This document shows positions 20,917 to 64,000 of a stretch of DNA of 64,000 nt, one piece after another; the first letter of the stretch is position 1; the number at the start of each line of letters is the position of its first letter. The position numbers and the translations under genes were made by a program. Below the pieces are notes generated by a model. The model did no database searches and was not told the origin of the DNA. It worked only from the letters and a program-made list of their open reading frames with translations. The stretch spans positions 1 to 64,000 of the IMG/VR virus record IMGVR_UViG_3300009180_000041. The stretch is one strand, 5' to 3'. The DNA comes from a virus.

Positions 20917-21234
20917 ATGAAAAATTTAGAAATTAGAAAACCAGGAAGACCAATTGTTGAAAACAGTAAAAGACAATTAGAATTAAAAAGTAAAGAAGAA
21001 TTAAGAAGTTTAGGTTTAATTAAAAAAGGAAGACCAATTAAAGAAGACTCTAAAAGACAAAATGAGTTAAAAAGAAAAGAAGAATTAAGAAGTAAAGGTT
21101 TATTAAATGGTAAAAAAGGAAGACCAATTAATTTAAATAGTAAAAAACAATTAGAATTTAAAAGAAAAGAAGAATTAAGAAGTAAAGGTTTATTAAAATT
21201 AGGTAGACCAAAAGTTAATAAAGAAGAGGTTTAA
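20917..21234 (+). CDS. multi-AT-hook DNA-binding protein A (105 aa)
   Basis: Built from repeats of about 28-34 residues. Each has a GRP core with flanking basic residues (KPGRPIV, KKGRPIK, KKGRPIN, KLGRPKV) and a helical spacer (SKRQLELKSKEELRSLGL and variants). GRP with flanking K/R is the AT-hook, which inserts into the minor groove of AT-rich DNA, as in HMGA proteins. Four hooks in tandem would bridge or coat this AT-rich genome. A paralogue is at 24084. Candidate roles are a nucleoid-like organiser, transcription regulator or anti-silencing factor. Confidence 0.8.
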   Translation: MKNLEIRKPGRPIVENSKRQLELKSKEELRSLGLIKKGRPIKEDSKRQNELKRKEELRSKGLLNGKKGRPINLNSKKQLEFKRKEELRSKGLLKLGRPKVNKEEV

Positions 21235-24083: not shown

Positions 24084-24398
24084 ATGAACACACAAACTAA
24101 AAACAAAGTAGGCCGTCCAGTAGTACAAGGTAGTAAAAGACAAATTGAATTGAAATTGAAAGCTGAATTGCGCTCACAGGGCCTACTGAAGAAAGGCCGC
24201 CCGGTAGTTGAAAACAGTAATCGTCAATTAGAATTACAACGTAAAGCTGAACTACGTAGTCAAGGTGTATTGACAGGTCGTAAAGGCCGTCCAGTTGATC
24301 CAAATTCAAGAAAACAGTTAGAATTTAAACGTAAACAAACAATGCGTGAAAATGGTACACTAAAATTAGGTAGACCGAAAATGGTTAAGCAAGATTGA
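24084..24398 (+). CDS. multi-AT-hook DNA-binding protein B (104 aa)
   Basis: Paralogue of the 20917 protein with the same four-hook layout (KVGRPVV, KKGRPVV, RKGRPVD, KLGRPKM) and helical spacers (SKRQIELKLKAELRSQGLL and variants). Its codons use more G and C (CGC, GGC, CTG) than the A-type copy, although the proteins stay alike. This suggests separate histories rather than a very recent local duplication. A terminator follows. See the copy at 20917 for likely role. Confidence 0.8.
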   Translation: MNTQTKNKVGRPVVQGSKRQIELKLKAELRSQGLLKKGRPVVENSNRQLELQRKAELRSQGVLTGRKGRPVDPNSRKQLEFKRKQTMRENGTLKLGRPKMVKQD

Positions 24399-24702: not shown

Positions 24703-25281
24703 CTAGAATATATACTCAGAGTAAGTCTTCTTAGTAGGAACTACGTTAGGAAAGTAGTACTTTTCCATTAATTCACCATTAAAATAAATAAACTTATAAA
24801 AACCCGTTGGTACCCAAGCACCTGTTGGGAGTACATTTTGTTGTGTAAATGTACAAACAATTTTGACTTTCACATTGCCTGTCATACTTAAGTTTCTCTC
24901 GTGTAATTCCAATACTCTCCACACAGTTCTGTTAAGTTTTTCGTTTTGTAAACAACAATTTAAGTACGAAAACGTTTTCAATAGTATTTCCTTACTACAA
25001 TTAAAACTAGCAGCAGGTGCCATATGACCTTTGTCGTAAACATTGTTTACATAGTCGTTATTGTCAGATGTAATATAACCACTTACAGTGTAAAAATCCA
25101 TTCCTACTCTTGAGGCTTTACCATCAGTACAAAGGACTGTGTATTCTGACCACAATGGTTGTTGTTTAACTTCACTGTACATGGTTTTATAAATACCCAT
25201 GTTAACAAACACACTGTCTCTCTGACTGTATAAACTCAGACTAATGAGACTAAAGACTAATACTAATATATATTTTTTCAT
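24703..25281 (-). CDS. secreted EndoG/NUC-type non-specific nuclease
   Basis: A 192-residue protein with a classical signal peptide: KK, a hydrophobic core to about residue 16, and an SLYSQ cleavage region, as in Bacteroidota exported proteins. The mature part has YDKGHMAPAA (about 82-91), the D-R-G-H catalytic motif of DNA/RNA non-specific endonucleases with K for R. It also has LQNEKLNRTVWRVLE (about 111-125) with the conserved N and E that bind magnesium. It would act in the periplasm or outside the cell. Its orientation opposes the rest of the window. It may degrade incoming rival DNA or scavenge host DNA. Ends in TAG. Confidence 0.85.
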   Translation of the reverse strand: MKKYILVLVFSLISLSLYSQRDSVFVNMGIYKTMYSEVKQQPLWSEYTVLCTDGKASRVGMDFYTVSGYITSDNNDYVNNVYDKGHMAPAASFNCSKEILLKTFSYLNCCLQNEKLNRTVWRVLELHERNLSMTGNVKVKIVCTFTQQNVLPTGAWVPTGFYKFIYFNGELMEKYYFPNVVPTKKTYSEYIF

Positions 25282-25885: not shown

Positions 25886-26275
25886 ATGATAAAATTAACT
25901 GAATTAATTACTAATGAAATTGAAGAATACGATGTTGAAAACATTAATGATGTTCGTTCGTTTATTCAATTTATGAGAGAATATAAGTCTACTGACTGTG
26001 GAACTTGTTTAAGAGAAGCAGAATACAAAGGCCGTAAGGTCCAACTAGGCAAGCCTATGCAAGGTGATGTTAAGAAGTTTAAGGTGTATGTTAAAAATCC
26101 TAAAGGTAAAGTAGTTAAAGTTAACTTTGGCTTTGGAGGTACATCTGCTAAAGGCAAACGAATGGTTATTAAGAAAAATAATCCAAAACGTAGGGCAGCT
26201 TACAGAGCAAGACACAACTGTAGTAATCCAGGACCAAGACATAAAGCAAACTATTGGTCTTGTAGAAAGTGGTAA
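25886..26275 (+). CDS. late protein with RARHNC/WSC cysteine motif (129 aa)
   Basis: N-terminal tag MIKLTELITNE matches the family of putative capsid-targeting tags and offers an I-T-N-E junction. The C-terminus KNNPKRRAAYRARHNCSN...KANYWSCRKW is a basic, two-cysteine block that I recall from T4-like marine phage proteins of unknown role. CGTC near residue 37 adds two further cysteines. It is probably a DNA-binding or structural protein of the prohead interior, by inference from tag and charge. Confidence 0.65.
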   Translation: MIKLTELITNEIEEYDVENINDVRSFIQFMREYKSTDCGTCLREAEYKGRKVQLGKPMQGDVKKFKVYVKNPKGKVVKVNFGFGGTSAKGKRMVIKKNNPKRRAAYRARHNCSNPGPRHKANYWSCRKW

Positions 26276-26276
26276 T

Positions 26277-26831
26277 ATGATTAAACTTACAAACATATTA
26301 AATCAAATTAATGAAAGTAAACAAGTAGGTAATTTATATCATTTTACTTATGATAGTTCTATACTTAATATACTTAAAAATGGTTTACGGTTTGCTCCAG
26401 ATAATACAGAATTAGATAAATATAAAGATACATTTTATATATCTACTACAAGAGACTACACAGGACATAAGTTTTATAATGAATTGGAAGCTAAAGTTAG
26501 AATTACATTAGATGGTAATAAAATTTCAGAAAGATATTTAATAAGACCTATTAGTGTAGAAAATATATGGGTAAAAAATAGTGGTTTAGATTGGAATAAA
26601 TCACCTGTTAAAGATGTATTTTATGAAGAAAGAATATTTTCATCAAAAGGAGGATATTTAGATCCAAAATATATAATTAAAATAGATACTACTATTACTG
26701 AAGAGGAAATAAAAAGAGGAATTAATTGGGGTAAAGAAGACAGTAATAGAATAACATATTTTGATAATAGTATACTCGATTATATTAATAGTGGTAAATT
26801 AAATTTTGTTAAAAATTTCAATGTAAAATGA
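26277..26831 (+). CDS. tagged late protein, possible ADP-ribosyltransferase-like
   Basis: I start this at ATG 26277 (184 aa), giving the tag MIKLTNILNQINES that is repeated almost exactly in the next gene. The body LYHFTYDSSILNILKNGL...FYISTTRDYTG...VRITLDGNKISERYLIRPI has a Y-H-F-T then S-T-R-D order, found in phage proteins of the ART/DarT-like type. It also has a late E-E-R-I-F segment. T4 Alt is an ADP-ribosyltransferase packaged in the capsid and injected with DNA. The tag plus this fold suggests an analogue, but the enzymatic call is tentative. Its stop overlaps the next ATG. Confidence 0.5.
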   Translation: MIKLTNILNQINESKQVGNLYHFTYDSSILNILKNGLRFAPDNTELDKYKDTFYISTTRDYTGHKFYNELEAKVRITLDGNKISERYLIRPISVENIWVKNSGLDWNKSPVKDVFYEERIFSSKGGYLDPKYIIKIDTTITEEEIKRGINWGKEDSNRITYFDNSILDYINSGKLNFVKNFNVK

Positions 26832-27466
26832 TTAAACTTACAAACATATTAAACCAAATTCTTCTTGAAGAAAAAACTAAACGTGACAGGTGTCTTAGGA
26901 TAGCTGATCGTAAGTTTGACAAACCATCAGCATATAAGTCTGGGGCTGTGGTTAGATGTCGTAGAGGTAAAATATGGAAAGACTTAAAAGAAGATACTAG
27001 AAATTATATTAATTGGAATGAAAATTATGGTAAAACTTTTAAAATAGTTAATACACCTGAAGGAGCACAATCTGGAGGTGAATGGAATCCTAATTTAGTT
27101 TCAATTGTAACACCAGAAAATAAAAATACTTGGAGTAATTGGAAGGAAGTTTCTCAAGATATTTTAAATAATTTTAAAAAAAATTGGGATGAAATTCAAA
27201 AATCTTTAGGAGACCATAAATACAACCAAATAATTAAAAGTCAACAATTAAACGAAGACGAAAGTCTTCATAAATGGTTCAAACGTCGAGGCCCTAAAGG
27301 TAAAGAAACCGGTTGGGTAGATTGTAACGCACCCGATGGAAAAGGAGGTTATAAGTCTTGTGGTAGAAAAAAAGGTGAGACACGTAGTAAGTATCCTGCT
27401 TGTAGACCTACTCCTAGTGGTTGTAAAAGAAAAGGTAAAGGTAAAACTTGGGGCAAAACAAAATGA
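26828..27466 (+). CDS. tagged two-domain basic cysteine-rich late protein (212 aa)
   Basis: Tag MIKLTNILNQILLEE, then domain 1 with RCLRIADRKFDKPSAYKSG and VRCRRGKIWK. A middle region leads to an internal junction QQLNEDES, then domain 2 with HKWFKRRGPKG...GWVDCNAPDGKGGYKSCGR...SKYPACRPTPSGCKRKGKG. Domain 2 resembles the DUF5872 type of cysteine/glycine-rich phage module. The two domains are separable at an L-N-E site, as in the polyproteins. Very basic; probably DNA- or capsid-associated. ATGA overlaps at both ends couple it to its neighbours. Confidence 0.65.
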   Translation: MIKLTNILNQILLEEKTKRDRCLRIADRKFDKPSAYKSGAVVRCRRGKIWKDLKEDTRNYINWNENYGKTFKIVNTPEGAQSGGEWNPNLVSIVTPENKNTWSNWKEVSQDILNNFKKNWDEIQKSLGDHKYNQIIKSQQLNEDESLHKWFKRRGPKGKETGWVDCNAPDGKGGYKSCGRKKGETRSKYPACRPTPSGCKRKGKGKTWGKTK

Positions 27467-27780
27467 TAAAATTAACTCAACTACTAACTGAAGCAAAACA
27501 ATCTATTGAAAATTTTGCTAGTACTAGATTAAAAGGTGCTGAAAAAATTGCTGATACTACCTTAAAAGCAGGTGGATTATCATTATTAACTTATAAACAC
27601 TATAAAGTTAAATTACCCTATTATAAAAAAGCAGCAGCTAATAAATTAGATAAAGAAACTGCTAAAAAAGAATTTGAAGAAACTTTAAAAAGTATTTCCT
27701 TAGGTATGACTCAAAGCCAATTTCAAATTGAAATGGGACGTTTAGAAGTATTAGGAGAATTATTAATAGAAGAAAAATAA
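27463..27780 (+). CDS. tagged small late protein (105 aa)
   Basis: Start at ATG 27463 gives MIKLTQLLTEAKQ, tag plus L-T-E junction. The rest is a basic, helical body. The next gene starts immediately after its stop. Probably an internal head or scaffold-associated protein, inferred only from the tag. Confidence 0.6.
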   Translation: MIKLTQLLTEAKQSIENFASTRLKGAEKIADTTLKAGGLSLLTYKHYKVKLPYYKKAAANKLDKETAKKEFEETLKSISLGMTQSQFQIEMGRLEVLGELLIEEK

Positions 27781-28860
27781 ATGGAAAAGGTTTTTGATTT
27801 ACATAAATGGAAAGAAAAACAATTGTTCTTAAATGAACAAGACGAAGACTTTACTGTTGACGCACCTCATGAATGGGACACTATTGATTTAAAAGACGGA
27901 GACCTAATTATGCCTAATATGTGGCAACATAATACTAACACAAACCGTCTTTATGTTGATATTACTAAACCATTAATTGTAAAATACTATAAATCTATAG
28001 TATTTGGTGATGATAATGTGCAACTTCAGGATAGAAATGGAGAATATGAGGTTATTGATGTTGATAAATTTAATCAAACTTACTTAAAACCTGGATTTCA
28101 ATTTAGTGTACCAGGGAATTTAAGTGAAAGTAAGGAAGAAGACTTTACTGTTGACGCTCCTGAGGAATGGGGCTACGAGAATTTTAATGGTAATACTGAA
28201 GATTATACTGATTTAGAAAACTGGGCTAGACCTATTTTAATAAACGCTGGAATTGACCTAGAATACATTGATTACTACTTTATATGGATGAGGAATTGGG
28301 GCGATAGTTTAGAAGGATTTAAAAACATTTCACCTGAACAAATACTTCAAGACTTTGAAGAATGGAAAGAATACAATGTGGATGAGGAATTAGACGAGTC
28401 TACTGAAGAAGACTTCACTGTTGACGCGCCTGACGATTGGGATACTACTGATTTAAGAGCTGGTAGTACTATTACTCCTACTATGTGGAATCAAAATTTA
28501 GGTCCTGACTACAACTCTATAGATGATTGGATTGATGATCCTACTGAAAATCAAATAATTGATGATATTTTAAAAGACGATCGTGGAAAAGTATATGTGA
28601 TTTTCACTGGTGTAAACTCTAATATTCAAAATGTATACACATTAACTGATTTTAATAATTTATTAGATCCTAAATACAAAGTTATAACTAATTTAAATGA
28701 ATCTGAAGACGACTTTAATGTTGATGCACCTGATGATTGGAATAAAGAATACTTAACAGTAGGCAGTATTATTAAACCTGAAATGTGGGATCGTGAAAAA
28801 GCTATTAAAGCATTTGATTGGTGGGACGATGAAGAAAGAAAATGGTTAGATTTACCTTAG
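27781..28860 (+). CDS. repeat polyprotein, 5' part, repeats 1-4
   Basis: A 359-residue open frame ending at TAG 28858-28860. After a tag-like start (LHKWKEKQLFLNE) come repeats of about 100 residues. Each opens with L-x-E, an acidic run, then (F/W)(T/N/S)V(D/E)AP-x-(D/E)W and often TITPxMW. Each closes with LLKPGY-x-I-like text. Junctions seen here: FLNEQ, LSESK, LDEST, LNESE. The same frame continues without other stops through repeat 4 into the following gene, so the TAG splits one long coding unit. No enzymatic motif is visible. The junctions match the (L/I)xE sites cut by T4 prohead protease. Confidence 0.75.
   Translation: MEKVFDLHKWKEKQLFLNEQDEDFTVDAPHEWDTIDLKDGDLIMPNMWQHNTNTNRLYVDITKPLIVKYYKSIVFGDDNVQLQDRNGEYEVIDVDKFNQTYLKPGFQFSVPGNLSESKEEDFTVDAPEEWGYENFNGNTEDYTDLENWARPILINAGIDLEYIDYYFIWMRNWGDSLEGFKNISPEQILQDFEEWKEYNVDEELDESTEEDFTVDAPDDWDTTDLRAGSTITPTMWNQNLGPDYNSIDDWIDDPTENQIIDDILKDDRGKVYVIFTGVNSNIQNVYTLTDFNNLLDPKYKVITNLNESEDDFNVDAPDDWNKEYLTVGSIIKPEMWDREKAIKAFDWWDDEERKWLDLP
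28858..28860 (+). other. in-frame TAG interrupting repeat 4
   Basis: The codons before (KWLDLP) and after (EILRFTEVGNVRF) the TAG join smoothly into a normal repeat. Elsewhere TAG ends only a few early or minus-strand genes (18494, 23882, 24703, 11353, 16418) and no other late gene. Confidence 0.7.
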
Positions 28861-28923
28861 GAAATTCTTCGATTTACTGAAGTTGGAAATGTTAGATTTG
28901 CTATAAATGATGAATATTCTAGA

Positions 28924-31900
28924 ATGTTTGGTTTAGATTTTATCAATACGGTACTAAAACCAGGATTTGAAATTACTAAAGAATTAAATGAGTCTGATGA
29001 ATGGTCTGTTGAAGCACCTAAAGATTGGGATAATATTGAATTAAAACAAGGTAGTACTATTACTCCTGAAATGGTAGATATGTCTAATATTCCTGAAAAT
29101 AATTTATACTGGTGGGAAGAAAAGATTATAGAATTAAATGTAGGAAAGATTTGGAAGTTAGATAAAGAATACATTGAATTAAAATATAAAATAACAGATG
29201 ATGAAGATCATAATTATATTTTAATGTATACAATTGACTTTTTAGAAATTTTAAAACCAGGTTATGTATTAGTTTTATCTGATGGAACCGTTTTAGAAAA
29301 ACAAGATTTAAATGAATCTACTGAAGATTTTACTGTTGACGCACCTCAAGATTGGGATGTGGAAATGTTAACAGTAGGTAGTATTATTACACCTGAAATG
29401 TGGATACCCAATATTGAAAGTGAGTTTACTGATACCTGGAATTGGGAAACAGGTTTAGACATAACTTCAATACCTTGGTTAATTACAGTTGTTCGTAAAA
29501 ATGAAGTAGTCTTAAGAAATAATGATGTGTATGGTGAGATGATATTTGGTTTTATAAATGAAATAAATAATTGTTTACAGCCTGAATATAGAATTACTAA
29601 TGACTTAAATGAATCTATTGAAGACGAGTTTAATGTTGAAGCACCTGATGATTGGGGTACATTAAATATAGGTGATCGTATTACTCCTAATATGTGGAAT
29701 ACAGATATTAAACTTAAAACACCTGGTAGTAGGATTATAAAAAAAACTTTAAATAATATGAAACAATCTACTTGGACTATTGAAGATCTACCATTAGATG
29801 ATTTAGATCATGTTTATTTATCAACCCCAGGTGATGAAACAATTATTAGTATAGATCTTTTAAATAATAGTTTAAAACCAGAATATCAAATTTATAATCT
29901 TAAAAAACTAAGAGAATCTACTGATGAATTTAATGTGGTAGCACCTAAAGAATGGGACAATACAGAATTGACTGTAGGAAGTACTATTACACCTGAAATG
30001 TGGAAACCTAATGCACAATGGATGTTTTCTAGTATTGATGTTTCAAAACCTATAACCATAGGTAAGAAAAGTAATCCAAGAATATATTTGTATCTTACTG
30101 ATGTAAAAGGAAGAGGAACTCATATTAACGCAGGTACTTTAAATAAATATTTAAAACGTAAGTATCGAGTTGTAGATGATGAAGCATTATATGAATCTGA
30201 AGACGAGTTTAATGTAGAAGCACCTGACGATTGGAATGTAAAAGAACTAGGAGTAGGTGATGAGGTTACTTGGGATATGTTTAAAACTGAAGAATTAGCT
30301 GACCATTGGATGGATGATTATGATGTAAAAATTATTAAAAATATTTATACTCGCCCAATTCACCCAAGTGCTATAGTATCTTTAACAAAACCTAATGGTG
30401 AGTCTGTTGGTAGTTGGTGGTTAGACAGTGTTGAAAGAGATTTAAAATCTGAATATAAAATTAAAGTACCTGACAATATGAATGAAAATGAAGACGAGTG
30501 GTCAGTTGAAGCTCCTAAAGATTGGGACAATTTTGACATTGAAATTAGAATGTCTAATACATATACTTTTTTCAATATTGAAACTGATGATGAAGCTACA
30601 GTAGATGAAGTAAAACTAGTTAAAACAAACTCAGATGAATTAATAAAGTATTTTGGTGATAATATTCCTTATGATTCAAGTCAAATTGAAGATTTACTTT
30701 ATGAAAAATACTTTAGAGACGATGATTTACAGGATTTTATAAATCAAAATGAAGTTGTTGAAGAAATACCTGATGAATTATATGGTGATGATTGGGACAA
30801 TGAATGGGATGGTGTTGATTTTGATGTTAAAATAGTTGGTAAAGTAAATGAAGTAGAAGATGAATGGTCTGTTGAGGCACCTCGTGATTGGGATTACCAA
30901 CAATTAAGTTTAGATGATACTATTACTCCTGAAATGTGGGATTTAAATAATCCTGAATTGGAAGACTACATTGATGATCCTACTGAAGATTGGAAAATTT
31001 TAGAACTGTATGCTAGTCGTGTAGGTAGTGATGCTTCAATTTTTATTCAATCACCTACTGGAGGTGAATTAGGTACTCAAATGGAAGAAATAAATAAACT
31101 TTTAAAACCAGGATATAAGATAGTTGTTAATAAATTAAATGAAGTAGATGAAGATGAATTTAATGTTGAAGCACCTGTAGACTGGAATAAAGAATACTTA
31201 ACAGCAGGAGATATTATTACACCTAGTATGATAAAACCTAAATTACCTATTGATTATAGATTTTACAAAAATAATACTAAAATTAAAAAAATAATGCCAC
31301 AAAGACATGGAGATGGAATTTTAATTAATACTGTGTTTGTAGATCAAGATGGACATGATCTACCATTTACTGATGACTTTCATTGGATTGAAGAATGGAA
31401 TCATAAATTAATAGAACCATATACAATTAGTCCTGAAAAGAATTTTGGTAGTAGTTTAAATGAATTACTTGATGATGAAGATGAGTTTAATGTAGAAGCA
31501 CCTAAAGAATGGGATACCACTAATTTAGGAATAGGTGATATAATTGAGCCTTTTATGATTGAACCTAAAGCTCAAATTGATACTTACATAGAGAATATTC
31601 CTAAAATTTTAAAATTGATGAAAAAATATCCAACTGAAATTACAGATATTTATAATGAATTCAAGGGAATACAGTTGAAACTTCCACAATGGTCACCACT
31701 TAAATTTACTATGAAATTATCAGATATACAAAGTATTTTAAAACCAGGATATGAAATTAGTAAACCAAGTACTTTAGATGAAGTAGATGAAGATGAGTTC
31801 GATGTTGATGCACCTAAAGAATGGGACATTAAAGTACTCACTACAGGAGACATTTTAACTAATGAACATTTAGGAACTGGTGGTAATACTGCTTATAAAA

Positions 31901-32463
31901 TCATTGGATTTGAAGATAATAGAGTTAAAATTGAAAAAGGAAAAATACTTAAAAGAGATACAGGAGATATTTTTGTTCCAAATACTCCATACATAACAAC
32001 AATACCTTTAAGTACACTTCAAAGAAGACTAAATCCTGGTTATGTTATAGAACCTCCTACTACTAAACTAAGTGAACTTTTAAAAGTAGATGATGAATTT
32101 GATGTAGTAGCACCTGATGAATGGAATGAATATGATAAAAACATAAGAGTAGTTATTGAAGCTGAAGTTTTTTCAGTTGATAATACTAATAATGCTAGTG
32201 AAGAATTAAGATGGACTACTGATAAAATTATTAATATTAATGAATTAGAAAATTATTCTTATGATTTTAAACCATTTTTAGGAAGTCCTCTAGATGTAAA
32301 AGCTTTAAACCAATGGGTTGATACTATTGAATTTGACTGGTGGGACTTTATGTTGAATGAAGGATATGAACCTCATATAATTTATACTGATCCTAATTTT
32401 GAAGAAGGTGATGAAATTGAAGACATGAGTATAGTACATAAAGAGCTACTTCCTGCAGATTAA
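28924..32463 (+). CDS. repeat polyprotein, 3' part, repeats 4-15
   Basis: A 1179-residue frame in the same phase as the upstream gene; the coding frame in fact reopens at 28861, directly after the TAG. It holds the end of repeat 4 and eleven more repeats, with junctions such as LNESD, LNEST, LNESI, LRES, LYES, MNEN, VNEV, LNEV, LNEL, LDEV and LSEL before each DEFNVEAP-type motif. Repeat bodies are strongly diverged while the junction and V(D/E)AP-x-xW block stay constant. The whole protein is very acidic. No initiation signal is evident at ATG 28924, so read-through or one broken gene is as likely as internal initiation. Confidence 0.75.
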   Translation: MFGLDFINTVLKPGFEITKELNESDEWSVEAPKDWDNIELKQGSTITPEMVDMSNIPENNLYWWEEKIIELNVGKIWKLDKEYIELKYKITDDEDHNYILMYTIDFLEILKPGYVLVLSDGTVLEKQDLNESTEDFTVDAPQDWDVEMLTVGSIITPEMWIPNIESEFTDTWNWETGLDITSIPWLITVVRKNEVVLRNNDVYGEMIFGFINEINNCLQPEYRITNDLNESIEDEFNVEAPDDWGTLNIGDRITPNMWNTDIKLKTPGSRIIKKTLNNMKQSTWTIEDLPLDDLDHVYLSTPGDETIISIDLLNNSLKPEYQIYNLKKLRESTDEFNVVAPKEWDNTELTVGSTITPEMWKPNAQWMFSSIDVSKPITIGKKSNPRIYLYLTDVKGRGTHINAGTLNKYLKRKYRVVDDEALYESEDEFNVEAPDDWNVKELGVGDEVTWDMFKTEELADHWMDDYDVKIIKNIYTRPIHPSAIVSLTKPNGESVGSWWLDSVERDLKSEYKIKVPDNMNENEDEWSVEAPKDWDNFDIEIRMSNTYTFFNIETDDEATVDEVKLVKTNSDELIKYFGDNIPYDSSQIEDLLYEKYFRDDDLQDFINQNEVVEEIPDELYGDDWDNEWDGVDFDVKIVGKVNEVEDEWSVEAPRDWDYQQLSLDDTITPEMWDLNNPELEDYIDDPTEDWKILELYASRVGSDASIFIQSPTGGELGTQMEEINKLLKPGYKIVVNKLNEVDEDEFNVEAPVDWNKEYLTAGDIITPSMIKPKLPIDYRFYKNNTKIKKIMPQRHGDGILINTVFVDQDGHDLPFTDDFHWIEEWNHKLIEPYTISPEKNFGSSLNELLDDEDEFNVEAPKEWDTTNLGIGDIIEPFMIEPKAQIDTYIENIPKILKLMKKYPTEITDIYNEFKGIQLKLPQWSPLKFTMKLSDIQSILKPGYEISKPSTLDEVDEDEFDVDAPKEWDIKVLTTGDILTNEHLGTGGNTAYKIIGFEDNRVKIEKGKILKRDTGDIFVPNTPYITTIPLSTLQRRLNPGYVIEPPTTKLSELLKVDDEFDVVAPDEWNEYDKNIRVVIEAEVFSVDNTNNASEELRWTTDKIININELENYSYDFKPFLGSPLDVKALNQWVDTIEFDWWDFMLNEGYEPHIIYTDPNFEEGDEIEDMSIVHKELLPAD

Positions 32464-32483: not shown

Positions 32484-33821
32484 ATGATTAAACTTAGAAA
32501 TCTTTTAAATGAAAGTCCTGCTCAACCAGCGCCAGCTAGACCTGAAAGAGCTCCTCAACCAGACGTAATGCCTGGTGCTCCTAAAACAAAACCTGAACCT
32601 CGTAGAAGAAGTACTCCAAATCCTAGTACTAGTCCAACACCTAGTCCTAAAGCTCAAACTAAAACTAAAGAAAGACCTCATCAAGCTCCAAAAGATGGTC
32701 CAAAACCAGGCCCAGTTGGTGAAGGCATAATGGATAAAATTGTAGCTAGATACAAATCTGAATTTAATAAATTACATGAGGTTGACTATGAAAAAATCTT
32801 TGATCCTGAAACTGTAGGTAAATTAAAAGGCAGTGTCACTCAAAGAATGCAAGGTAAAAATCCAATGCAATCAATGCAAACAATGATGCAACTTGCTCCT
32901 CAAATTGCTAGAATTGAAAGAGGATATGAAGATGTTTTAAGTGATTTAGCTAAATCAGTAGTATACGAAGCTTATCCTTATTTGAAATCTAATCAAGATA
33001 TTATTGAAATTGACGCTCAAATAGTTTCTCAAAGTCAAGTACAAGACGCTTTACAACCTGACAGTCCAAATGAAGAAGACATTGAAGACTTAGACGATAC
33101 TGAAAAAGAAGATATTATGGGTGATATGAAAAAAAGACGTATTATCAATAGTATTACAGCAGGTGGAGCAATAGGAAGTAAAACAGCACATTATTTACAA
33201 CAAGAATACTTAGACGTTATAGGTGATAATTTAAGTGACAAATACAGAGACATCAACCAAGCTTCTCTTGATATGATTGATTTTGTAGTTAGTCAAGGTA
33301 AACAAAACGCTCAAAGAATGGGTGGTAGTAAAGAAAGTAGTGTAGGTGCTGAAAGTGTATTTTGGGATTTTGAAAAAGAAAAATGGATTATTAAAGCAAG
33401 AGCAGTAAATTTTGCTGTGTTGATTCATGAAATTACAAAAGGAATGTATGAAATCATTAGTTTATTTGGTTTCAACAACTTAGAACGAGGTGAAAAAGTA
33501 GTAGGTAAAGTAGATAAATTATCTAATGAACCTGAAGACTTAGCTTATGGCCAAATGATTAGTAAAAATTTATTTGATTTAATCAATAAACTTGAAAGTA
33601 ATGTTACACCAGATGAAAGAGACGACTTCTTACAAGACGTTTATAAACTACCTAATGAAGAATTTATTAAACTAATTACTAATGTTATTAATAATAGAGT
33701 AGATACTAACCAAACAAACCAGTTAAAAGGTATGTTTAGTCAAATGAGACAAGACAAAACCGCAGATGATGCTGATAATAGTTTGTTTGAAAGACTACAA
33801 AGAATGGCAGGAATTAGATAA
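32484..33821 (+). CDS. tagged late protein with Pro-rich N-terminus (445 aa)
   Basis: Tag MIKLRNLLNES with an L-N-E|S junction. Next is a ~65-residue linker of P, A, T, K and R (about 12-78), then a helical, soluble ~360-residue body ending LFERLQRMAGIR. A central SITAGGAIGSKTAHY segment and a GGSKESSVGAES stretch are not assigned. The MAGI ending recurs in the late protein at 59132 (MQELAGI). Probably a virion or head-interior protein; the function is unknown. A terminator follows. Confidence 0.65.
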   Translation: MIKLRNLLNESPAQPAPARPERAPQPDVMPGAPKTKPEPRRRSTPNPSTSPTPSPKAQTKTKERPHQAPKDGPKPGPVGEGIMDKIVARYKSEFNKLHEVDYEKIFDPETVGKLKGSVTQRMQGKNPMQSMQTMMQLAPQIARIERGYEDVLSDLAKSVVYEAYPYLKSNQDIIEIDAQIVSQSQVQDALQPDSPNEEDIEDLDDTEKEDIMGDMKKRRIINSITAGGAIGSKTAHYLQQEYLDVIGDNLSDKYRDINQASLDMIDFVVSQGKQNAQRMGGSKESSVGAESVFWDFEKEKWIIKARAVNFAVLIHEITKGMYEIISLFGFNNLERGEKVVGKVDKLSNEPEDLAYGQMISKNLFDLINKLESNVTPDERDDFLQDVYKLPNEEFIKLITNVINNRVDTNQTNQLKGMFSQMRQDKTADDADNSLFERLQRMAGIR

Positions 33822-54505: not shown

Positions 54506-54512
54506 TATTTAT
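54504..54512 (+). promoter_or_regulatory. late-type motif AATATTTAT
   Basis: Overlaps the previous stop; 8 bases upstream of the start at 54521. Confidence 0.55.
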
Positions 54513-54520
54513 TGGCTGAC

Positions 54521-55360
54521 ATGATTTCTCTACGTTCCCTTTTATTAGAAGTATACGGAGGTCCAAAAGCCATTATTTTAGCTGGTGGAGCAGGTGTTGG
54601 TAAATCAACATTTACTAACACTTTAACACCTTTTTTACCTTCAAATTTTAAAATTTTTAATCCTGACACTCATAATCCAGATGACGATCCTAATAGACCA
54701 AATATAGCTAAAAATTCAGCTGATATTAGAAAAAATGCTATTCCTGACGCGATAAAAAACAAACAAAGTTTTGTTTATGATACTACTGGTCAAAATTTTA
54801 AAGAAACAGTTAAAATTATTCAAGAAGCTCAACAAGCTGGTTTTAAAGTAATGATGATTATGCTTTATGCTTCTCCAATTGTTAGTTTTTTAAGAAATTT
54901 TAGTAGAGACAGAACACTTCCTAAAGATGCTGTGTTAAACAATTGGGCTAAAGTTTATGGTTTAATAGATAATTATAAAAAGGTACCAAATCTAGAATTT
55001 GCTTTAGTTCAAACTGAATTAAAACCAAACGAAAGAGAAGATGTAGCTGAATTTAATAAAGCTTACTCAGAAAATGAATTAGAAGAGTATTTTAAACAAT
55101 TAATTCAAACTGATCCTTCAAAATACTATTCATCTTTTAGAAAACCAAAACCATCTGACATTGAAACCGCAGATGATCTACCAGATCCTGAAGAAGTAAA
55201 AGCTAAAGAAGAAAGAAAAAAAGAAAGTGAAAAAAGATTCTCAGATGCTATTAAAAATCTTAAAGATCAATTTAAACAAGTAGAAAAATATTTAAAAATA
55301 ATTAAACCTATGGACTATAAAGAAGTAGTAGGTACAGTGAAAACATTTACAAAACCATGA
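54521..55360 (+). CDS. zeta-toxin-like P-loop kinase with capsid-type tag
   Basis: Start at ATG 54521 gives MISLRSLLLE, matching the tag pattern with an L-L-E junction; a TTG extension (54512) lies in the promoter motif. The core is ILAGGAGVGKST (Walker A, about 18-29), FNPDTHNPD, SADIRKNAIP and VYDTTGQNF, then RDRTLPKDAV, the zeta-toxin/polynucleotide-kinase-like order. The C-terminal ~90 residues are a charged coiled coil (KAKEERKKESEKRF). Phosphorylates a nucleotide, sugar-nucleotide or nucleic acid; a packaged effector by inference. Overlaps the next gene. Confidence 0.7.
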   Translation: MISLRSLLLEVYGGPKAIILAGGAGVGKSTFTNTLTPFLPSNFKIFNPDTHNPDDDPNRPNIAKNSADIRKNAIPDAIKNKQSFVYDTTGQNFKETVKIIQEAQQAGFKVMMIMLYASPIVSFLRNFSRDRTLPKDAVLNNWAKVYGLIDNYKKVPNLEFALVQTELKPNEREDVAEFNKAYSENELEEYFKQLIQTDPSKYYSSFRKPKPSDIETADDLPDPEEVKAKEERKKESEKRFSDAIKNLKDQFKQVEKYLKIIKPMDYKEVVGTVKTFTKP

Positions 55361-59131: not shown

Positions 59132-60217
59132 ATGAATGAATTAAATAGAATTTTTTTCAAATATCGTGATAAAAATATTATTATGAAATGGACTGATAAG
59201 GATTTTGATAATCTTTATGAGGACTTAGTTCAATATTTTGATGGCGACTCAGATGAAGTAACTGAATTTATGGGGAGTGGACAAGCAGAACCATATTTGA
59301 AAAAATTTAATATTGATTTAATTGAACCTGAAGAATATAATATTAATCAGGATGAATTCCCTGGTCAAGCATCTGGTGATAGTACTATGATGGGACCAGC
59401 TATGGAAGAAGTAAAAAGAATGCAAGAATTAGCTGGTATTAAAGAAGTTGATTTCCCTCAATTATCATTTACTGGTGATCAATGGAAAACTGATCCAAAT
59501 AATCCAAATAAAAAAATACCTAAAGTAATAGCATTTAATTATCCAGCGGTAAAAGAAGCAATTGGTTCTGAAAATATTAAAATGTTTGCTAAAGTAGTAG
59601 GAAAAAACACAAGAGGAAGAGGTGCTGGTAGAGACAAAAAAGAATTTGCTTTATATATTTCAAAAGAATTAAAAACAGCTTTAGATCAAACAACAAGAGG
59701 TAGATCTAGTAGACAAATTGAAAAAGGTAAATGGGATTTAACTAAAAAATTAGATGAAGTTCCAAGTGCTGTAAAAAGTATTCTTAAAAAAGGTACTGAT
59801 GGTGGAAAATTAATGAGTGTAGGAACAGGTCCTCAAATGTATCAAGTTAGTTGGCCAGTTATGGGCCAATCAGTAAAAAATGAAGATCTTTATTGGTTAG
59901 TACCAGCTCATATGAAAGATTGGTTCATGGAAGAATCAGTGTTAAATGAAGAAAAAACAAAAGAAAAAGAAAGTGATTTAAATATAGGTTTAGTATTTGA
60001 CACTGAAGAATTACGTGATAAAGCTATACATAAATTAAAAACTCAAAAATTACCTTTAGTATATCATGCTAAAGACGCAGTTAATATTGAATTTCCTTTA
60101 GATAAAAATTCAAAATACAACAAAGAAAAAATAAAGTCTATAGTAGATAAAATTTCACAACAATTTACAAAAGTAAAATTTCATAACTCACTAACAGAAT
60201 TCTCAAATGAAGGATAA
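59132..60217 (+). CDS. late protein with internal L-x-E junctions (361 aa)
   Basis: The N-terminal ~110 residues are acidic and end KRMQELAGIKE. A basic domain follows (KVVGKNTRGRGAGRDKKEF, TTRGRSSRQIEKGKW). After SVLNEEKTKEKES, a short C-terminal alpha/beta domain begins. The LNE junction and LAGI motif link it to the tagged family. The basic central part could bind DNA. Overlaps the next gene by 11 bases. Confidence 0.6.
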   Translation: MNELNRIFFKYRDKNIIMKWTDKDFDNLYEDLVQYFDGDSDEVTEFMGSGQAEPYLKKFNIDLIEPEEYNINQDEFPGQASGDSTMMGPAMEEVKRMQELAGIKEVDFPQLSFTGDQWKTDPNNPNKKIPKVIAFNYPAVKEAIGSENIKMFAKVVGKNTRGRGAGRDKKEFALYISKELKTALDQTTRGRSSRQIEKGKWDLTKKLDEVPSAVKSILKKGTDGGKLMSVGTGPQMYQVSWPVMGQSVKNEDLYWLVPAHMKDWFMEESVLNEEKTKEKESDLNIGLVFDTEELRDKAIHKLKTQKLPLVYHAKDAVNIEFPLDKNSKYNKEKIKSIVDKISQQFTKVKFHNSLTEFSNEG

Positions 60218-62420: not shown

Positions 62421-64000
62421 ATGCCAGATTTAGGTTCATTAGTATTAAGAAACGTCAAAGGATCACCTCTTACTTTTACAGAAGGTGATAATAATATACA
62501 GTACGCTGCTTTACAATCACAAAGTGTTAGTTATACTACACATTATTTTCAAAGTAATAGTTTAATATTATCAAGATCTAATGGTGGTGGAATTGAAATT
62601 AAAGACTTAGGTACATTTACAGCTTCATATGCTATGAATGCTAGAACTGCTAGTTATGCTTTAAGTGCTTCTAATATAACTAATTATCAATTATACGCTA
62701 CTTATTCAAATTATGTTACTAATTCATTTACTATTTTAAGTGAATCTGTTGGAAGAGGTGGATTTTTTCAATTTACAGGTAGTTTTTCAATAACTAGTAG
62801 TAATGGAACTAGTCCTCAAACAGCTAGTTTTTATTTACCTACTACTTTCTATAGTGATGTGACATTAAGTGGTTCTACAACTAATATTGATGGAAATTTA
62901 CAAGTAGTTACTGGAGATAATTTTTTAAACGGAATAAGAATTTATAGAGGAGAAGAACCCGGTGTTGGATTTAAACAATTTTTAGCTCTAAATTTTGCTA
63001 ATGGAAATGGTAATATACTAGCATATGAACCACAGTATAATTCTCCTCGTATGCATTTTAGATTATCATCAAGCGCGACTGATATACCAGATAGTAAACC
63101 TTTACTTAATGGAAGATCATTACTTTCAATAGAAAAATTAGAAAATGACGATCCACATTTAATACTTGGTGGAACTTGGTTCACTGCAGCTGATTCAGCA
63201 TCATATACAAGTTATTTTAGTGGTTCAGCAGTATTTTTAGCAGGAGCCACAGGATCTTTACGAGGTACAGCGAGTGGAAATTTTGCATCTGCTTCTATAT
63301 CAAGTAATACTGTTACATTTTTCAATGGTTATAATCAAACTGCTGGAACTTTAAATTTAGCAAATAGTACTAATCAAAATTTACAATCTGTAACATCTGT
63401 TGGTAATTCAACTACATCTTCAGTTAATATAGGAGCTAATAATAGTTCATCATTATCATCAGTTGCATTTGGTTTAAATTCTATAGCAGTTGGTAGTTAT
63501 TCATTTTCTAATGGAAATACAGTATCAGCTTCTGGACTTTACAGTCATGCTGAAGGAGGACTTTCAACAGCTAAGGGTAATTATTCCCATGCTGAAGGAT
63601 TTCAGACTACAACTTTAGGCGTATCATCTCATAGTGAAGGAGAATCCACTACAACTATAGGAAATTATTCACATGCTGAAGGAATAAATACAATAGCATC
63701 TGGAAGTTATTCACATGCTGAAGGTTATTTAACAATAGCATCTGGAAGTTATTCACATGCTGAAGGTAGAAGTACAATAGCATCTGGAAGCTTTTCACAC
63801 GCTGAAGGTGGATTTACAATAGCTACAAATTTTGGTTCACATGCTGAAGGTTATACTACAAGAGCTTTAGGTGATTATACACATGCTGAAGGTAGTTTTA
63901 CAACAGCAATAGGACAATTTTCACATGCTGAAGGAGAATCAACAGTAGCTAAAAATCAAGCATCACATGCCGCTGGATTTAAAACCACAGCAAGTGCTGA
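62421..64000 (+). CDS. tail fibre/adhesin with SHAEG repeats, 5' part
   Basis: Open to the window end, so partial (526+ codons). The N-terminal part is S/T/N-rich. From about residue 360 there is a run of ~14-residue units of the form (S/T)HAEG-x-x-T-x-A-x-G-x-(Y/F), e.g. YSHAEGYLTIASGS, at least ten copies. These are the YadA-head-type (Hep/Hag) repeats of trimeric adhesins, common in phage fibres; they form a left-handed beta-roll. It likely binds the host surface. Repeats near-identical at DNA level (63,660-63,800) invite length variation. Confidence 0.85.
   Translation, partial: MPDLGSLVLRNVKGSPLTFTEGDNNIQYAALQSQSVSYTTHYFQSNSLILSRSNGGGIEIKDLGTFTASYAMNARTASYALSASNITNYQLYATYSNYVTNSFTILSESVGRGGFFQFTGSFSITSSNGTSPQTASFYLPTTFYSDVTLSGSTTNIDGNLQVVTGDNFLNGIRIYRGEEPGVGFKQFLALNFANGNGNILAYEPQYNSPRMHFRLSSSATDIPDSKPLLNGRSLLSIEKLENDDPHLILGGTWFTAADSASYTSYFSGSAVFLAGATGSLRGTASGNFASASISSNTVTFFNGYNQTAGTLNLANSTNQNLQSVTSVGNSTTSSVNIGANNSSSLSSVAFGLNSIAVGSYSFSNGNTVSASGLYSHAEGGLSTAKGNYSHAEGFQTTTLGVSSHSEGESTTTIGNYSHAEGINTIASGSYSHAEGYLTIASGSYSHAEGRSTIASGSFSHAEGGFTIATNFGSHAEGYTTRALGDYTHAEGSFTTAIGQFSHAEGESTVAKNQASHAAGFKTTASA
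63580..64000 (+). repeat. tandem ~42-base SHAEG repeats
   Basis: Direct repeats around TCACATGCTGAAGG recur about every 42 bases to the edge of the window. Neighbouring units near 63,690-63,780 share long identical stretches (AATAGCATCTGGAAG). Confidence 0.8.

Follow-up and report, generated by a model that had tools for sequence, protein, structure and literature searches.

A gene of 15 repeat units and its neighbourhood

The window, i.e. the whole stretch of 64,000 nt analysed here, covers positions 1 to 64,000 of the IMG/VR record IMGVR_UViG_3300009180_000041, a 65-kb fragment of 64,983 bases in all. One gene in it encodes 15 tandem units of about 90-128 aa, each with the header [FW]xVxAP, whose 15 copies are spaced 90-122 aa apart (Table 1). 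The chain begins with a leader, MEKVFDLHKWKEKQLFLNE, which resembles the T4 capsid-targeting sequence (CTS) and stops at the first L-x-E. Leaders of the MEKVFDLHKWKEKQLFLNE type are also found at window position 60207 and in the related contigs L027 and G005.

The initial annotation, made from the window alone, had described about 15 repeats in two adjacent in-phase frames. The number of units and their phase were confirmed; the two frames (27781-28860 and 28924-32463) proved to be a single gene split by one TAG at 28858. Contig L004 (IMGVR_UViG_3300027763_000087) has 5 mismatches to the window over 20.6 kb, and within the 4683-bp gene its sole difference is TGG (Trp) for TAG, resulting in one ORF of 1560 aa. 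Because of this, the TAG is, judging from the comparison, a point variant, genuine or due to assembly error, and not a gene boundary. Recoding of TAG was ruled out by the same near-identical contig, and it is also argued against by TAG usage, as just 3 of the 71 listed window ORFs of at least 80 aa stop at TAG. The repeats had also been called acidic. This holds for the protein as a whole (pI 4.17, net charge -199) but not for unit 8 by itself (pI 7.9).

Table 1. Features of the repeat gene, its flanks and the second multi-module gene (window coordinates)
Feature	Position	Strand	Remarks
Four short genes	25886..27780	+	MIKLTxLLxE-like (CTS-type) leaders; directly upstream of the repeat gene
Repeat (candidate polyprotein) gene, 15 units	27781..32463	+	One 1560-aa ORF save for the in-frame TAG
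Leader MEKVFDLHKWKEKQLFLNE	27781..27837	+	Like T4 capsid-targeting sequence
Unit 1	27838..28128	+	Majority body class
Unit 2	28129..28398	+	Different body; relative is A13 in G001
Unit 3	28399..28701	+	
Unit 4	28702..28992	+	Contains the TAG
In-frame TAG	28858..28860	+	TGG (Trp) in L004; inside unit 4
Unit 5	28993..29316	+	
Unit 6	29317..29613	+	Modelled unit; residues 15-90 predicted SH3-like barrel
Unit 7	29614..29916	+	
Unit 8	29917..30195	+	
Unit 9	30196..30486	+	
Unit 10	30487..30852	+	Third body type, by alignment with A14, B4, B12, C7 and unit 15
Unit 11	30853..31143	+	
Unit 12	31144..31464	+	
Unit 13	31465..31782	+	
Unit 14	31783..32076	+	
Unit 15	32077..32460	+	Third body type; relative is A14
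445-aa neighbour	32484..33821	+	Leader MIKLRNLLNE|S; marks syntenic position of the repeat gene in relatives
Second multi-module protein, 931 aa	55357..58152	+	Modules joined at L-x-E
Next-module starts in 931-aa gene	56041, 56770, 57142, 57493, 57622		

Several other features of the window were recorded. About two dozen plus-strand copies of the element GTTATATTATAGTA(T) lie between 3760 and 24080, most of them directly in front of short ORFs, and the structural half has just one core match, on the minus strand; the element resembles an early or middle promoter. Small basic proteins with tandem KKGRPVxxxSxRQ repeats (AT-hook-like) are encoded at 20917-21234 and 24084-24398 and have relatives in L008 and G005. 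The minus-strand gene at 24703-25281 codes for a DNA/RNA non-specific endonuclease (PF01223, E 6.5e-21) whose start resembles a signal peptide; it is conserved in G001, and in L027 it is found just upstream of the repeat gene. At 63579-63956, 42-base tandem repeats coding SHAEGxxT are part of an apparent tail-fibre gene running off the window.

IMG/VR searches recovered the gene from at least six other phage contigs, where it has between 5 and 15 units. The 176-kb contig G001/L006 encodes 1537 aa with 15 units, L007 1308 aa with 12 units, L008 953 aa with 9 units, and L026/L027 862 aa with 5 units. L028 carries a piece that is cut off, and in G005 (179.7 kb) 8 units are spread over two genes of 335 and 567 aa. 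In the relatives whose flanks were read, a MIKL... neighbour gene (416-461 aa) lies beside the repeat gene, without the MIKL start as called in L026/L027. The leaders of the relatives end in AYILRE, SYILRE, LKKLILE, SKIINE and SRLGE, and that of the window in ...QLFLNE|Q. The hydrophobic-x-E leader end, the (L/I)xE mark of T4-type CTS proteins, is therefore present as a sequence pattern.

No relatives of the repeat protein were detected by tblastn among 50,697 phage records, nor by a profile search of the complete genomes of immuto, Mel-JY01 and LR756508. Host genome contigs gave no match to the header pattern, which would miss other tag types. The repeats matched no Pfam family and gave no convincing PHROG match. 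The window phage and G001 share a baseplate wedge gene with immuto, a cultured Flavobacterium phage, and G001 and immuto have T4-type portal, capsid and protease genes in common. The repeat protein is about 29% identical to its G001 counterpart, compared with 62-77% for many neighbour genes, and this faster divergence is consistent with host-facing evolution.

Conserved junctions, phage-specific tags and diverse bodies

All 15 window units are preceded by [LIMV]-x-E, mostly as L-x-E|S. For 51 unit starts in the proteins of four phages, we searched for the site within 12 residues upstream and compared the counts with shuffled controls. [LI]xE was found at 45 of the 51 starts (shuffled mean 16.5, maximum 27) and [LIMV]xE at 50 (shuffled mean 23.0, maximum 34), the remaining start having FxE. 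All 13 junctions in G005 and G007 and three in L028 also had the site, which is thus kept at 67 of the 67 unit starts examined, with L or I at P3 in 58 and M, V or F in the others. The earlier statement that the junctions hold was borne out. The V, M or F at some P3 positions is a departure from the strict (L/I)xE rule and counts against cleavage. Ser at P1' was found at 33 of 51 junctions; this residue and the acidic stretch might belong to a linker that is never cut.

Within the unit bodies, L/I-x-E occurred at 0.68 of expectation (37 vs 54.1, z -2.6), compared with 1.20 and 1.46 in other proteins of these phages. L/I-x-D and L/I-x-K showed no depletion in the bodies. This shortage is the pattern expected of selection against internal cuts, which it moderately supports.

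The 10-14 residues after the site are near-constant among the units of one phage and different between phages. This tag is SxDEFNVxAPxDW in the window, G001 and L007, SEDEFNVTPxExW in L008, DDFEFTDTDKELA in G007, FELGDEDLELAKGL in G005 and IKAVPGNTG in G006. In L007 and L008, a small number of units have the tag type of the other phage, the trace that whole-unit exchange would leave. Between these two phages one unit shows 81% DNA identity, and the identity stops at the junction. In the window, header codons for Ala (GCA in 12 of 15) and Pro (CCT in 15 of 15) are biased relative to the genome (0.27 and 0.53, respectively), whereas other conserved header codons show synonymous variation. Because tag codons vary synonymously and yet the Ala and Pro codons are biased, the tag is likely kept by both protein-level selection and unit-to-unit copying.

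A tag scan of the other genes of the window and G001 gave no clear match beyond the repeat gene. A leader-bearing protein of G001 (138497-139375, minus strand) contains DDEFTVSSAP, faintly like the G001 unit tag, and its G005 homologue (142043-142927, minus strand) has VFDLGDTSE at about the equal place, faintly like the G005 tag; both stretches were unremarkable in the scan and may be chance.

When the bodies were clustered by sequence, 39 of 51 fell into a main class and the others into smaller groups; W10 and B4 were joined to the third body type by alignment and by eye. In a 36-row unit alignment the divergence was too great for a pattern search. The initial annotation had given each repeat an L-x-E start, DEFNVEAP-x-DW, often TITPEMW and a final LLKPGY. 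The site was found at all units, while TITPEMW and LLKPGY are confined to the majority body class, as units 2, 10 and 15 have other bodies. Body types recur across phages whose tags differ. Two units of G007 (L046 2410-4998; the gene is also present in L026) are separated, at residues ~460-740, by a long KQDPEAYAKYLEK repeat rich in lysine; it is basic amid the acidic remainder and unlike every other body.

An AlphaFold2 model of unit 6, a main-class unit, had a pLDDT of 84.9 and a pTM of 0.73. The best PDB alignment of residues 15-90 was to FeoA (Z 5.8), and DtxR-family and Tudor domains were also listed. The main-class body is accordingly predicted as an SH3-like barrel, a likeness that at Z 5.8 may reflect only a common arrangement. 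Foldseek with this model gave nothing significant (E not below 0.8). The third body type gave a poor model (pLDDT 52.7), to which no fold was assigned. Small, related peptides, as proposed earlier, have to give way to predicted folded domains of about 100 aa whose bodies are not all related and in which the phage-specific N-terminal tag is a second conserved element. New in our analysis are the SH3-like prediction for the common unit, the apparently unrelated body types under one N-terminal tag, and the candidate lineage-specific tags.

The S77 protease and modules that move at hydrophobic-x-E

The initial annotation had tied its proposal of a precursor to an S77-type prohead protease. Such a gene is encoded in both near-genome-length relatives that carry the repeat gene, G001 and G005. 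Matches to Pfam Peptidase_S77 (T4 gp21) were obtained for G001 (E 4e-32), G005 (6e-34), immuto (7e-36), Mel-JY01 (5e-31) and LR756508 (3e-14). The proteases of G001, G005 and immuto have in common the motifs GELDHPES and GISSRG, of which we take the His and Ser to be catalytic, as in the S77 family. They also carry the site themselves, near the N-terminus (LLTE|SK, SLNE|AK and NLHE|AR) and near the C-terminus (SLNE|GK, SLAE|GK and GLNE|SK). For T4 gp21, N-terminal self-cleavage has been described (PMC9958956), and cuts at both the N- and the C-terminus have been suggested (PMC5694885).

The S77 gene is absent from the window's own 65-kb contig. This is expected, because the fragment is collinear with G001, in which the protease gene comes about 14 kb after the counterpart of the last window gene to be matched. 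From this collinearity, the protease gene of the window phage would sit just off the contig end.

The second multi-module protein of the window (931 aa) consists of NMN-adenylyltransferase-like, nucleotidyltransferase, metallopeptidase, ParB-like, Zn ribbon and NT5C nucleotidase modules, with the joints SLQE|D, SLNE|S, VLNE|S, VLDE|S and KLKE|E. Its G001 version is without ParB and Zn ribbon, and MLNE|SKE runs straight into NT5C there. The G005 version has the Zn ribbon alone, between VLNE|S and KLNE|K. In L033, the ParB module is found in another leader-bearing protein, flanked by GIKE|N and VLKE|E, and in immuto the NT5C module is a gene of its own with its own leader, MKKVMGNLADLLLEE (...LADLLLEE). 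These arrangements indicate that modules move with their borders at hydrophobic-x-E and that a joint in one phage can serve as a leader end elsewhere.

In a 217-aa gene of G006, the leader MDNFNLKQFLVKNKLTENSRLGE is followed by a single main-class unit and, after TLEE, by another unit; its 132-aa neighbour is alike in leader type and tag and has a different body. Units thus occur both in short leader-bearing genes and strung together in long ones.

At 54512-55360, a P-loop kinase with a Zeta_toxin match (PF06414, E 7.6e-11) starts with MISLRSLLLE. Because this start resembles a capsid-targeting leader, the kinase may be a packaged protein.

A candidate head-maturation polyprotein and known systems

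We consider it probable that the gene encodes a head-maturation polyprotein yielding packaged internal proteins. The MEKVFDLHKWKEKQLFLNE leader would act like the T4 capsid-targeting sequence and bring the chain into the prohead core, where the phage's gp21-type S77 protease would cut after each hydrophobic-x-E during head maturation. Cutting would free some 15 proteins of about 100 aa, folded and mostly acidic, with the phage's own tag (here SxDEFNVxAPxDW) at the N-terminus of each. The freed proteins would remain in the head and probably be ejected with the DNA, as T4 internal proteins are. T4 offers a precedent by analogy for targeting, cutting and ejection: its CTS is removed, Alt is cut at ITE-6 and LTE-619, and IPI is injected as an inhibitor (PMC9026906, PMC5694885). 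The earlier proposal of a precursor cut at L-x-E by a gp21-like protease survived all comparative tests run, with cleavage and capsid location as what we infer from sequence. In its favour are the S77 gene in relatives, the sites in the proteases themselves, the depletion in the bodies, the gain and loss of modules at L-x-E and the short genes of CTS type. The gene anatomy, its conservation, the protease gene in relatives, the avoidance of sites and the exchange of modules at them were observed. As in a viral polyprotein, several mature domains in one ORF would be parted by sites of one viral protease; the sites are present, the protease is encoded in relatives, and short-gene counterparts of units and modules exist.

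The same site could join the domains of a structural protein that stays uncut. The head, neck or baseplate would then contain an unbroken string of SH3-like domains, linked by a conserved L-x-E-S, and the header would form part of the interface between domains. In relatives with flanks read, the gene does have leader-bearing genes on one side and the baseplate module on the other, linkers are often conserved in tandem-repeat proteins, and header confidence in the unit model is moderate to good. We nevertheless regard this as unlikely: the bodies avoid L/I-x-E, the same site closes the leaders of short genes, some of which are short forms of the family, unrelated enzyme modules elsewhere are joined by it, and the unit count runs from 5 to 15, with 8 units over two genes in one phage. 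Cleavage at these same sites is also expected of a prohead core or scaffold component whose pieces mostly leave the head, as with T4 gp22, gp67 and gp68. The strong acidity (pI about 4.2) would suit such a component, and several cuts are made in T4 core proteins, of which small gp22 and gp67 fragments stay in the head. However, an acidic scaffold-like gene is already present next to the capsid genes in G001 and immuto; the main-class units, with their predicted fold and their shortage of internal sites, are the reverse of a core protein that is broken down to peptides; and the several unrelated body types, together with the absence of the gene from the complete related genomes of immuto, Mel-JY01 and LR756508, disfavour an essential core role, so that we give this reading a small chance.

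The biased Ala and Pro codons of the header (GCA, CCT) point to a recent DNA ancestry common to the units, and the L007/L008 unit pair is identical at the 81% level up to the junction. Both would be expected if the array were mainly a recombination substrate, its header and junction being kept by unit copying or conversion and L-x-E having no protease role. This is very improbable, since the other conserved header codons vary synonymously, the header differs between phages while L-x-E stays, and non-repeat modules are also bounded by L-x-E.

If the units are indeed packaged proteins, our guess from their fast divergence and shuffling is that they are host-facing inhibitors, perhaps against defence systems as T4 IPI is, whose anti-restriction role would be the precedent. 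A wider and more tentative proposal is that such phages build and deliver a combinatorial effector set as one capsid-targeted polyprotein, in which domains of several folds, each with a phage-specific tag, would be gained, lost and exchanged between phages at protease sites, and from which the head protease would release an injected, evolving cocktail. Were the polyprotein reading true, a head-maturation protease known for leader trimming and scaffold clearing would also cut many mature proteins out of one precursor, as RNA viruses are best known for doing. In aquatic phages, hydrophobic-x-E joints would then offer a simple rule by which unannotated genes for packaged, probably injected proteins could be recognised, and the gene would be a natural case of cargo domains added to a phage head.

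We found no phage protein of this design, and no usage of 'phage polyprotein', in the searchable literature, which largely leaves out subscription journals. The 'polyprotein' of an Aquificae virus is unrelated, being a polymerase fusion.

The closest likeness is to T4 IPI, IPII, IPIII and Alt, which have a leader ending in hydrophobic-x-E and a gp21-family S77 protease (encoded here in relatives). Like the units here, the T4 internal proteins are small and fast-evolving, and the sites here are of the form seen in Alt (PMC5694885, PMC9026906). Each T4 internal protein has a separate gene and one leader, whereas here up to 15 units follow one leader with internal sites. The units, unlike the T4 proteins, share a tag after each site. 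The T4 internal proteins are described as basic and the units here are mostly acidic, which counts against the polyprotein reading. T4 gp22, gp67 and gp68 also receive multiple gp21 cuts per chain but are degraded to peptides, whereas here the sites fall chiefly at the borders of predicted domains, which themselves contain fewer than expected. The prohead protease of SPN3US and phiKZ cuts after x-x-E, sometimes several times per propeptide, and prefers Ser at P1'; in the part of that account available to us, the reported cuts remove propeptides and no string of mature domains is described (PMC10052503).

Polyvalent proteins of phages and conjugative elements are large, modular and expected to enter the host (PMC5512222). 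The 931-aa protein, like them, combines several different enzymatic or effector domains in a single chain, and shares with them module kinds such as metallopeptidase and ParB-like. In the repeat protein, searched with Pfam and PHROG, no such set of domains was found. Processing of polyvalent proteins has been proposed to occur via their own zincin-like peptidase domains (PMC5512222); in the repeat protein, by contrast, no enzyme module is recognised, and the joints fit the prohead protease.
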